Below, one piece after another: positions 36,855-61,562 of a stretch of DNA of 64,000 nt. The position numbers and the translations under genes are program-made. The stretch's first letter is position 1. Each line of letters opens with the position of its first letter. The notes beneath the pieces are model-generated. The model searched no databases. It was not told where the DNA came from and worked only from the letters and a program-made list of their open reading frames with translations. Where the stretch lies: positions 248,001 through 312,000 of the forward strand of contig NZ_QKZL01000002.1 of the NCBI RefSeq assembly GCF_003253995.1, in the 5' to 3' direction. The DNA is from Palleronia aestuarii (GTDB taxonomy: Bacteria > Pseudomonadota > Alphaproteobacteria > Rhodobacterales > Rhodobacteraceae).

Positions 36855-38045
36855 ATGAACCTCGACGAAACGGAATTCTTCGACCAGGACATCCAGCGGA
36901 TCCAGTTCATGGAGCAGGTGCCGCTGATCCTGGACGTCTGTGCGCAGGCGACCGGCATGGGGTTCACCGCTATCGCCCGCGTCACGGAGGATCGCTGGAT
37001 CACCTGCGCGTCGCGCGACGACATCGAATTCGGCCTGCGGCCGGGCGACGAGCTCGACGTGGAATCGACGATCTGCAAGGAAGTGCGAACCGCCGAGCGG
37101 CTCGTCGTGATCCAGGACGTAGAGACCGACGCGGTCTATTGCGATCATCCGACGCCGAAGCGTTACGGGTTCCGGAGCTACATCTCGGTGCCGATCGTCC
37201 GCGCTTCCGGAGAGTTCTTCGGGACACTCTGCGCGATCGGTCTGCAGCCGATTAAGGACGATCCGGCCCGTGTGGTGGGATTGTTCAAGCTCTGCGCACA
37301 ACTCGTCGGCGCCCAGATCGACACGTCCGAGATGCTCGAACAGAGCAATGACGCCCTTTCCTTCGAACGCGAGACGGCAAAACTCCGGGAGGAGTTCATC
37401 GCGATCGTCGGGCATGACCTGCGCAACCCGATCGCGGCGCTCGGGGCCGGTCTGCGGCTGATGGAGCGGCAGATGCCCGAGGGTCCGGCCCACGACATGC
37501 TGCCGGAGATGAAGCGCACGGTCCTCAGGGCCAACAAGATCATCGACAACCTGCTCGATTTCGCCCGTGGCCGGATGGGCGAGGGGATCGTCGCGGTCCG
37601 GCGCCGGGACGTGAATCTCTCCGAGGTGATCGAGGATGTCGCCTCGGAGATCCGCGCGGTCTCCCCCCATGAGGTGGAGGTCGATCTCGATCTCGACCGG
37701 CGCATTGATTGCGATCCGCAGCGGGTCGGCCAGCTCGTCTCGAACCTTTTGAGCAACGCGGTCACCCACGGGACGCTGGAAACCCCGATCCTGGTCCGCG
37801 GCCGTACCGACGAGGCCGCGCTCCACATCTCGGTGGAGAATTCCGGCGATCCGGTGACGCCCGAGATGCTGACCTCCCTGTTCCAGCCCTTCGTGCGCGG
37901 CGATCGGTCGAGCCAGAACGGTCTGGGCCTCGGTCTCTATATCAGCTCGCAGATCGCACGTGCCCATGGCGGCGAACTGATCGCCGAATCCGACGGCGGG
38001 AAAACGACCTTCACCTTCGTCATGCCGCTCGAGCCGGCGGGCTAG
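36855..38045 (+). CDS. GAF-domain sensor histidine kinase
   Basis: Soluble kinase of 396 aa with no membrane helix. An N-terminal GAF domain (about 20-160; TGMGFTAIARVTEDRWITCA, YGFRSYISVPIV, GTLCAIG) precedes a HisKA domain with phospho-acceptor H in AIVGHDLRNPIAALGAGLRL. The HATPase domain has NLLSNAVTHGT, VENSGDPVT and GLGLGLYISSQIARAHGG. No response regulator is adjacent, so it is an orphan here. Cys29, Cys51 and others in the GAF could hold a ligand, but none is diagnostic. Its stop interlocks with that of arfB (CTAG). Confidence 0.92.
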   Translation: MNLDETEFFDQDIQRIQFMEQVPLILDVCAQATGMGFTAIARVTEDRWITCASRDDIEFGLRPGDELDVESTICKEVRTAERLVVIQDVETDAVYCDHPTPKRYGFRSYISVPIVRASGEFFGTLCAIGLQPIKDDPARVVGLFKLCAQLVGAQIDTSEMLEQSNDALSFERETAKLREEFIAIVGHDLRNPIAALGAGLRLMERQMPEGPAHDMLPEMKRTVLRANKIIDNLLDFARGRMGEGIVAVRRRDVNLSEVIEDVASEIRAVSPHEVEVDLDLDRRIDCDPQRVGQLVSNLLSNAVTHGTLETPILVRGRTDEAALHISVENSGDPVTPEMLTSLFQPFVRGDRSSQNGLGLGLYISSQIARAHGGELIAESDGGKTTFTFVMPLEPAG

Positions 38046-38476
38046 GCGTCCCGGCTGCCGGGATCGACGCGCCCCCGCATCGCCTTGACCTCGCCGCGGA
38101 CCTTCTTCTCCTTCAGCCGCCGCTTCTTGGAGCCGAGCGTGGGGCGCGTCGCGATGCGCCGCTTCGGCCGCTCCGCCGCCGCGCGGACCAGCTCGGCAAG
38201 CCGGTCACGCGCGATTTCCCGGTTGCGCGCCTGGCTGCGGGTCTCCGCCACCTGAAGCACCAGAGCGCCGTCCCGCGTCCAGCGCCGTCCCGCGAGCCGG
38301 CGAAGCCGCATCTTGACCGGCTGCGGCAGGTTCGGGGACCGCTCCGCCTCGAAGCGCAGCTCCACGGCTGTCGCGACCTTGTTCACGTTCTGCCCGCCCG
38401 GTCCTCCGGACGTGCCGAACTGCTCGACGATCTCCCAATCCTCGATCGTGATCGCCGGGGTGATCTTCAATGCCAT
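38042..38476 (-). CDS. arfB: Alternative ribosome-rescue factor ArfB (peptidyl-tRNA hydrolase)
   Basis: ArfB/YaeJ (144 aa) rescues stalled ribosomes by hydrolysing peptidyl-tRNA. The catalytic GGQ is in SGGPGGQNVNKV near residues 24-35, and the basic C-terminal tail that enters the mRNA channel is present (RPTLGSKKRRLKEKK). ATG 38474-38476 has GGAG five bases upstream. Notably, the same frame stays open upstream to 38656, right through an 11-bp repeat array, giving a possible His/Arg-rich extension. I judge the ATG to be the real start. Confidence 0.94.
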   Translation of the reverse strand: MALKITPAITIEDWEIVEQFGTSGGPGGQNVNKVATAVELRFEAERSPNLPQPVKMRLRRLAGRRWTRDGALVLQVAETRSQARNREIARDRLAELVRAAAERPKRRIATRPTLGSKKRRLKEKKVRGEVKAMRGRVDPGSRDA

Positions 38477-38510
38477 GCCTTCTCCCCCGGATCCGGATCG
38501 CGCGATGTGC

Positions 38511-38654
38511 GTATGCCGGTTTGCATACGTTCGGTGTACGCGCGGCATACGATGTATGTCCGTCCGGTGCACGCGAGCCGTACGTCCGACGCACGCGCGC
38601 TGCACCGATGCTGCACGCGCCGTGTACGTCCGGTGTACGTCCGGTGTACGGGTC
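38511..38654. repeat. Thirteen-unit degenerate tandem array with 11-bp register
   Basis: Units start at 511, 523, 534, 545, 554, 567, 578, 589, 600, 611, 622, 633 and 644 (add 38000), so spacing is 11 bp except for 12, 9 and 13 near the left end. The best unit is GTGTACGTCCG (622 and 633 identical, 644 partial). The first six bases are mostly alternating purine-pyrimidine (GTGTAC, GTGCAC, GCATAC). The register is one helical turn. It lies between the arfB start and a terminator hairpin. The period is not a multiple of three, arguing against coding. Function unknown. Confidence 0.85.
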
Positions 38655-38675
38655 ACGCCCCTCCCTGAACGCGAA

Positions 38676-38702
38676 AAGGGCTGCCGGAAACCGACAGCCC
38701 TT
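38676..38702 (-). terminator. Intrinsic terminator of the small minus-strand unit
   Basis: On the minus strand AAGGGCTG, a mismatch and a CGG/CCG inner pair around a TTT loop close with CAGCCCTT, followed by TTCGC. The 8-bp outer stem is perfect. It stands 69 bp past the stop of the 18-codon frame and ends the unit that starts after the queuosine-precursor transporter gene. Confidence 0.75.
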
Positions 38703-38771
38703 CGAATGTTTTGGAGATGGGCCCGGTTAGAGCGGCGCCCAATCAGGGTTCTGTCACCTCAGGGTTTGCCC

Positions 38772-38828
38772 TCAGGCGATGGCCCCCATGACTGTTCCGA
38801 CCTCATACTCCACCATCATTCTAGACAC
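38772..38828 (-). CDS. Candidate 18-residue peptide with an extreme Shine-Dalgarno
   Basis: GTG at 38826-38828, TGA at 38772-38774; the peptide would be MSRMMVEYEVGTVMGAIA. GGAGG lies exactly seven bases before the GTG and is part of a 17-base stretch complementary to the 16S 3' tail. A TTGACA box (38887-38892, minus) lies just upstream and a hairpin terminator downstream, so this is a self-contained unit of about 190 bp. It could encode a peptide, act as a leader, or be an sRNA that titrates ribosomes. No family recognised. Past the stop, AACCCTGA is repeated twice. Confidence 0.45.
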   Translation of the reverse strand: MSRMMVEYEVGTVMGAIA

Positions 38829-38844
38829 TGGACCACCTCCTTTC
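38828..38844 (-). promoter_or_regulatory. Hyper-extended Shine-Dalgarno
   Basis: The plus strand reads CTGGACCACCTCCTTTC, identical to the 16S rRNA 3' end CTGGATCACCTCCTTTC except one base. The minus-strand transcript could therefore pair with the 16S tail over 17 positions with one G.U pair. Ordinary sites in this window use four to six bases. Confidence 0.6.
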
Positions 38845-38886
38845 ATTTGATTTCCGATAGGTAGAAGTTCGCACAGATTTTGCGTT

Positions 38887-38892
38887 TGTCAA
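38887..38892 (-). promoter_or_regulatory. Candidate -35 element of the small unit
   Basis: TTGACA read on the minus strand, just past the stop of the queuosine-precursor transporter gene. At 17-18 bp spacing the -10 is only AACTTC/ACTTCT, so the promoter is incomplete by consensus. The perfect -35 in GC-rich DNA and the A/T-rich surroundings make it the best candidate. Confidence 0.4.
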
Positions 38893-38898
38893 AAGAAA

Positions 38899-52207: not shown

Positions 52208-52302
52208 CGACATTCTCCCTGACCCGGGGGTGTTAGTGCGCGGTCGCGAACGTCTCAAGAGGTTTCGCCTTGCCGCGCCTTGCGCCGCAAACTAGGCTTC
52301 TC

Positions 52303-52385
52303 GCACCTCGGGGCGCCCAAGGGCTGAGACGCGGATCGCGGACCCGTAGAACCTGAACCGGTTAGCACCGGCGGAGGGAAGGTCG
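52303..52385 (+). ncRNA. TPP riboswitch (THI element)
   Basis: Conserved blocks are CGGGGCGCCC, CTGAGA (52324-52329), then ACCCGTAGAACCTGA, CCGGTTAGCACCGGC and GGAGGGAA, in the exact THI-box order. P1 is formed by ACCT (52305-52308) and AGGT (52380-52383). It lies 35 bp before the thiB ATG and should shut down thiBPQ, probably by hiding the ribosome site, when thiamine pyrophosphate is plentiful. Confidence 0.96.
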
Positions 52386-52420
52386 ATCATCCGAGGCCGC
52401 CCGTCCGTCATGGAGATGTG

Positions 52421-61486: not shown

Positions 61487-61562
61487 GAGCCGGTAGCTCA
61501 GTTGGTAGAGCAACTGACTTTTAATCAGTAGGTCCAGGGTTCGAGCCCCTGCCGGCTCACCA
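61487..61562 (+). tRNA. tRNA-Lys (anticodon UUU)
   Basis: 76 nt including an encoded CCA. The acceptor arms GAGCCGG and CCGGCTC pair perfectly with discriminator A; the D arm is AGCTCAGTTGGTAGAGCA, anticodon stem ACTGA/TCAGT with loop CTTTTAA (anticodon TTT), and the T arm CAGGGTTCGAGCCCCTG. A37 should carry t6A or ms2t6A. No integrase or duplicated 3' end is near, so it is not marking an island. Confidence 0.97.

Follow-up and report, generated by a model that had tools for sequence, protein, structure and literature searches.

The window, the whole 64,000-nucleotide stretch of Palleronia aestuarii DNA that was analysed, carries a compact element on its minus strand between two protein-coding genes. 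Upstream lies the gene for a queuosine precursor transporter (Vut_1, TIGR00697; 38899..39606, minus strand) and downstream, on the same strand at 38042..38476, the gene arfB, encoding the alternative ribosome rescue hydrolase (NF006718, 174 bits). Just after the transporter gene the element has a -35-like TTGACA at 38887..38892, probably belonging to a promoter of its own, followed by the 17-nt tract GAAAGGAGGTGGTCCAG (38828..38844), which complements the 3' tail of the 16S rRNA with one G.U pair and contains the Shine-Dalgarno sequence (SD) GGAGGTG. The ORF MSRMMVEYEVGTVMGAIA (38772..38828) starts with GTG at 38828 and has 18 codons and a TGA stop. About 70 nt of folded RNA separate it from an intrinsic terminator, GAAGGGCTGTCGG...GCAGCCCTTTT, at about 38674..38703, which is indicated by covariation as well as by the fold of the window RNA; it is absent from the list of a consensus scan that demands at least five T in eight. 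TTGACA, tract, GTG, 18 codons and terminator had all been noted in a preliminary description of the locus (38676..38895, minus strand) and are confirmed; the description overlooked the fold that hides the tract with a downstream mimic of the anti-SD, as well as the kinship to a named sRNA family. Comparison with relatives points to a small gene that has been conserved and whose RNA would fold tightly, with a near-perfect ribosome landing strip and an 18-codon ORF.

An exact TTGACA is the best match within the upstream 85 nt in 88 of the 135 aligned sequences, the window included, and a site with five of the six bases occurs in 26; in 111 of the 135 the TTGACA-like site is located 63-66 nt ahead of the GTG. 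Transcription would start from this site. A TATAAT-type -10 was not identified after the TTGACA, and a consensus promoter scan gave no promoter there, its sole promoter-like match (9 of 12) overlapping the SD. The spacer 3' of the TTGACA, at about 38845-38895 on the minus strand and with a consensus like ACACAAAATCTGTG in the alignment, is partly palindromic and seemingly better kept than a plain promoter spacer needs. It is possibly a regulator site.

The preliminary description had pointed to a pairing of 17 bases with the 16S tail, and this run, including its one G.U, is indeed the longest in the window, as compared to 14 and 11 for the second and third longest and to 11-13 in five mononucleotide shuffles of one strand. 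The exact sequence AAGGAGGTGNTCCAG is found once only in the 4.54-Mb genome, with three further copies at one mismatch; its reversed control gave eight matches there at no more than one mismatch. A search with the 16S tail sequence CTGGATCACCTCCTTTCT yielded five matches in 20 genomes. Three of these, in genomes of the same genus (G002, G006 and G009), lie distant from the elements of those genomes and were taken as 16S ends, and the remaining two (G039 and G042) are the opposite-strand reading of the genomes' own CC2171-like elements; from the window's own draft genome no 16S end was recovered. The columns of the tract are mostly invariant among 69 sequences, the majority of which were retrieved with a pattern in which this block is fixed.

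The occurrence of the element was assessed in several ways. A DNA similarity search of 60 genomes recovered it in 27, one of them the window's own genome, and an exact pattern search found at least 119 stretches in the named genome collection, all of which were used and 80 of which were listed by name. The loci found by pattern fix the SD, the GTG and a following TC, so that start and SD counts on such loci are biased; the model-found set is less biased, although it was drawn from high-scoring rows of a covariance model that was itself built from 69 sequences, largely pattern-found loci. The model matched 260 of 295 family genomes, with a single match in all but 20 (counted by hand from the result tables), which have two; in the eight of them for which the search was repeated, the extra matches score 28.8 bits or less. 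When ten family genomes lacking a match were searched again, three were positive at E<=0.01, two with SD and 18 codons (G016 and G402) and one short and weak, without SD (G337), and seven stayed without a match. The search across relatives that had been suggested for the locus has thus shown tract and terminator to be conserved. The sets of loci used below include 146 loci that include the window and some genomes twice (L021/L049, L013/L113); 135 sequences that remain after removal of the look-alike loci L031, L052, L059, L096 and L129, duplicates and loci with short flanks; and 19 diverged members, which were obtained from 24 lower-scoring loci (L219-L242) by leaving out five without an SD near the expected place. 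All counts derive from related sequences and hence do not represent independent events. A direct repeat, AACCCTGA (38766-38759 and 38750-38743), which had been regarded as a feature of the element, is doubled in only 2 of the 135 sequences, the window being one of them, and was dropped.

The consensus structure of the 135 sequences consists of a closing helix P1, a hairpin P2, the long-range helices P3 and P4, a small P5 and the terminator. In P1 the SD GGAGGU is paired with a downstream mimic of the anti-SD, CCCATCTCC (38713..38721, minus strand), which forms the 3' strand of the helix. The P2 hairpin, UCCAGUGUC...GAUGGUGGA (38809..38832, minus strand), is present both in the consensus and in the window fold and encloses the GTG start, whereas P3 and P4 join the ORF to the sequence after its stop; in the consensus fold the P4/P5 helices (38740..38794, minus strand) connect the latter half of the ORF with the post-stop segment. 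The window RNA folds better than all of 200 dinucleotide shuffles (z -4.7). Among 69 sequences 94.4% of the cells of the consensus structure are paired, as against 37-58% when the structure is slid along the alignment, and two-sided changes were observed at 22 of the 36 pairs, compared to 13.6 in shuffles. This covariation is carried mostly by P4, with changes on both sides at all six pairs, and by the terminator stem, with such changes at 10 of 12 pairs. The four outer pairs of P2 are 99.6% paired, and since P2 is mostly invariant it displays little covariation; the pairing of P3 is barely above that of shuffled columns (847 of 944 cells against 836, in 135 sequences). In P1, 97.9% of the cells are paired and changes are one-sided only, as would be expected if the 16S rRNA fixes one of the strands; P1 therefore rests on conservation and on folding and accessibility.

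With respect to accessibility, the mean unpaired probability of the SD is 0.021, compared to 0.277 with shuffled tails, and it was under the shuffle median in all 34 sequences tested (every fourth of the 135). Of the diverged members with 18 codons, 11 of 14 have the SD below the shuffle mean and 3 do not, and in 8 the hiding is clear, no more than 4 of 30 shuffles giving so low a value; in the five diverged members with other ORF lengths the SD lies above the shuffle mean throughout. The predicted fold, in which the SD is sealed by the anti-SD mimic, the start codon sits in a hairpin and the inner helices covary, is thus supported. Hiding of the SD as a property of the wider group was considered and rejected: in relatives from outside the family the SD is 0.42 unpaired against 0.28 in shuffles, and it is below the shuffle median in 5 of the 28 (out of 30) that were scored.

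The ORF has a length of exactly 18 codons in 132 of the 146 loci and in 67 of the 69 distinct model-found loci. A stop is present at codon 19 in 128 of the 135 aligned sequences (TGA 59, TAG 45, TAA 24), against 104.8 expected from column shuffling (range 97-112); in the other seven TGG is never found. No stops were seen at codon 6 (4.9 expected, range 1-6), at codon 8 (7.6 expected, range 3-10) or at codon 14 (3.4 expected), the last of which is not telling by itself since the shuffles range from 0 to 9. In-frame stops were encountered in one aligned sequence at codon 13 and in one at codon 18. The maintenance of both the stop at codon 19 and the frame argues that translation is under selection: frame, 18-codon length and stop all appear to be selected, and the ORF looks translated.

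Taken together, these features suggest a stand-alone ribosome-gated riboregulator, whose function would lie in the translation of an ORF of fixed length and not in the peptide, a reading that we consider to have an even chance of being correct. The RNA would then be a small RNA gene that doubles as a minimal mRNA. As long as the RNA is free, its maximal SD would be closed by the anti-SD mimic in P1 and the start codon held in P2, with the second half of the ORF kept in P3/P4 by the sequence 3' of the stop. We infer that a 30S subunit could invade the closed SD, since the match between tract and 16S tail covers 15-17 nt, as compared to the 6-7 pairs of P1. Translation of exactly 18 codons would melt P1 to P4, and the ribosome, terminating beside P5, would free the post-stop segment, including an anti-SD-like CAUCUCC. 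The output of such a ribosome-driven switch in the cell could be regulation in trans, with the exposed CAUCUCC region acting on mRNAs, or a report on the supply of free ribosomes. If this holds, a dedicated RNA would report ribosome access or translation independently of any downstream gene. At a probability of about one half, ribosome gating is placed ahead of the four alternatives, namely a peptide as the product, a base-pairing sRNA of the ordinary type, a decoy for the 30S subunit and an arfB leader. The preliminary description had proposed either a ribosome-binding regulator or a tiny, abundant peptide, and of these two guesses the regulator fits better.

The peptide guess, although weakened, is the most probable of the alternatives. 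In a small-protein gene the 18-residue peptide would be the product and the fold would merely set its level. The selection on frame, start, SD and stop agrees with such a gene, as do the recurrence of MSRxxLERGVGT within the main group of loci and the second codon (Ser), the third base of which takes all four letters. The comparison of codons with third bases that had been proposed for the ORF gave a divided answer, however, since elsewhere third bases that the protein leaves free are fixed (GAG in 135 of 135, AGA in 133 of 135). Likewise, amino-acid identity exceeds that of column shuffles by 0.02-0.12 at codons 4, 8, 13, 16, 17 and 18 and by up to 0.015 at codons 3, 10, 11 and 12, but it shows no excess at codons 5, 6, 9, 14 and 15; relatedness could explain the excess that remains, and overall identity is near the level expected from nucleotide conservation. 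Exactly 18 codons are kept in 14 of the 19 diverged, SD-bearing members, the other five having ORFs of 16-26 codons, and yet the peptides are very different: these 14 have little in common beyond the start (ATG in 11), Glu7 (11) and Val10 (11), and in five of them the spacing between SD and start is two bases shorter. In other clades the peptides are unrelated and have 20-35 residues. The peptide thus appears weakly conserved, little beyond its nucleotides, and evolution seems to have kept the length more strictly than the sequence. A small-protein gene is held to be rather unlikely. In L235, L236, L096, L129, L052 and L031 the same SD-start block precedes a third type of peptide, MSS...VEQPL or near it; in the two of these that were tested (L235 and L236) the SD is not hidden.

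The peptides of other clades belong to relatives of CC2171 (RF01867), an sRNA of Caulobacter. The CC2171 model aligns with the element over positions 1-159 of 159 with 39.3 bits (E 3.3e-7), and as this score is below the Rfam gathering cut-off of 75 bits, the element is a divergent relative of CC2171 and not a member by Rfam's rule. Both have a near-identical 5' block of about 30 nt, CAA..GAAAGGAGGUG(A/G)UCCAGUGUCU, and a paired terminator in the corresponding position. The CC2171 model has its codons 3-5 (CAUUGUC) paired with a GACAAUG directly before the terminator, whereas in the element it is the SD itself that pairs, with the anti-SD mimic found at the position of GACAAUG, and the helix of codons 3-5 is mostly skipped in the alignment. 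The two also differ in that the SD of CC2171 relatives is more open than in shuffles, in contrast to the hidden SD of the window's family, and in that the ORF has 18 codons in the element against 20-35 in 34 of 35 distinct ORFs of CC2171 relatives, the remaining one having no stop within the stretch read. Among 35 distinct relatives the helix of codons 3-5 is represented by a perfect match of 7-8 nt in 13 and by none of 5 nt or more in 7, as counted without a chance control; the matches vary (CATTGTC/GACAATG, ATGAGATT/AATCTCAT, CACCAAA/TTTGGTG). What the CC2171 relatives have in common is the SD-start block and the terminator, with differing peptides.

A search across the class with the CC2171 model matched 61 of 289 genomes, 9 of them above the cut-off, and among 14 named controls matched only Caulobacter vibrioides. 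Of 86 genomes in the class, presumed from the named relatives to be the Alphaproteobacteria, 48 contain the SD-start pattern GAAAGGAGGTGRTCNNRTGTC, against none of the 213 others of the phylum (genome numbers counted by hand from the result tables), and the reversed pattern has no match in any of the 299 genomes. Many genomes of the class contain CC2171 relatives that combine near-perfect complementarity to the 3' tail of the 16S rRNA with a short, translated-looking ORF. As a tentative extension of ribosome gating, which we would put at rather below even probability, there may be a class-wide alphaproteobacterial RNA that captures the 30S subunit by its 16S-tail complement and in which an ORF of set length positions the terminating ribosome, the RNA being remodelled and the peptide a by-product; the self-sealing of the SD by imitation of the 16S anti-SD would then belong to the window's family.

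A function of CC2171 was not found in the open-access literature searched. CC2171/RF01867 is tabulated in the Rfam 15 paper (PMC11701678) and included in a list of Mesorhizobium sRNAs (PMC5596092), and passages of Schrader 2014 (PMC4117421), which do not give the names, report that two earlier Caulobacter ncRNAs are actually translated. Pos19 (RSs0019) of Rhodobacter sphaeroides is, according to passages of its description (PMC5036791), likewise a small RNA that has both an sORF and a terminator; these passages place it between cxp and fadB, with an RpoE promoter and a length of 219 nt, and state that mutations of the SD did not completely abolish its translation. Because it occupies a different locus in that description, Pos19 is ruled out as the identity of the element. 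For Staphylococcus aureus, passages on extended Shine-Dalgarno sites describe pairing stretched towards the start codon, which is said to help weak starts (PMC13009471); there the extension amounts to two extra pairs on ordinary mRNAs, as opposed to the 15-17 nt in one dedicated RNA found here.

The relationship to a named sRNA family fits with a base-pairing sRNA, in which the sORF would mainly protect or clear the RNA and the anti-SD-like stretch would pair with the SDs of target mRNAs. Such an sRNA would also be in line with the promoter-like site, the terminator and a location independent of the neighbours. The anti-SD-like stretch, however, pairs with the SD of the same RNA, and protection needs neither an exact length of 18 codons nor full complementarity to the 16S tail, so that we regard this alternative as rather improbable. 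Dual-function sRNAs of the SgrS/SgrT and RNAIII/hld kind are structured and contain a short ORF, the peptide of which has an assayed activity of its own. The element resembles them in being a structured RNA with a short ORF, and differs in its weakly conserved peptide and in having the whole ORF within the predicted fold.

Complementarity to the 16S 3' tail over 15-17 nt in many genomes of the class would also be expected of a 16S antisense RNA or 30S decoy, which would occupy the tail, by titration or in 3'-end maturation, with little productive translation. A decoy requires neither a maintained reading frame or stop nor the hiding of its tract, and it is very improbable.

In 131 of the 146 loci the transporter gene lies no more than 500 nt upstream; the 15 loci without it comprise five look-alikes, five with less than 160 nt of upstream sequence and five in which none was found. 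The element as an extension of the transporter gene is ruled out by its own -35-like site and by these last five loci, which have enough sequence. On the downstream side, arfB follows on the same strand within 450 nt in 93 of the 146 loci, starting 161-355 nt after the GTG; in 16 loci it is located farther away, and in 37 none was found. For 30 of these 37 loci, among them eight named Paracoccus loci and three look-alikes from outside the family, more than 1 kb of downstream sequence is available; without the look-alikes, 27 family loci are left. In 14 loci from other families or look-alikes the flanking ORFs, as obtained by simple ORF calling, vary from locus to locus. As far as gene order goes, the unit is therefore shown to be independent of its neighbouring genes, and its persistence where no arfB follows argues that it is not an arfB leader. 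A leader attenuating the transcription or translation of arfB according to ribosome state would suit the proximity of arfB in the 93 loci, the role of ArfB as a ribosome-rescue factor and the pairing of a CCGGCCC with the 5' arm of the terminator in a consensus fold that lacks the 3' arm, but it is the least probable of the alternatives and as an attenuator is ruled out by synteny and the missing antiterminator signal: unit and terminator are kept where arfB is farther away or not found, the antiterminator pairs show no covariation (667 of 808 cells are paired, where 661 would be expected) and the terminator prevails once its 3' arm is included.

Between the terminator and arfB the window contains an 11-bp tandem repeat, GTGTACGTCCG, in 2.6 perfect copies at 38622-38650, with similar degenerate stretches at about 38500-38650; few of the 93 near cases have a longer distance from the GTG to arfB than the 353 seen here. 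Elsewhere in the window a TPP riboswitch (RF00059, 70.2 bits) is located at 52299-52396 and a tRNA-Lys (TTT) at 61487-61562, both on the plus strand.
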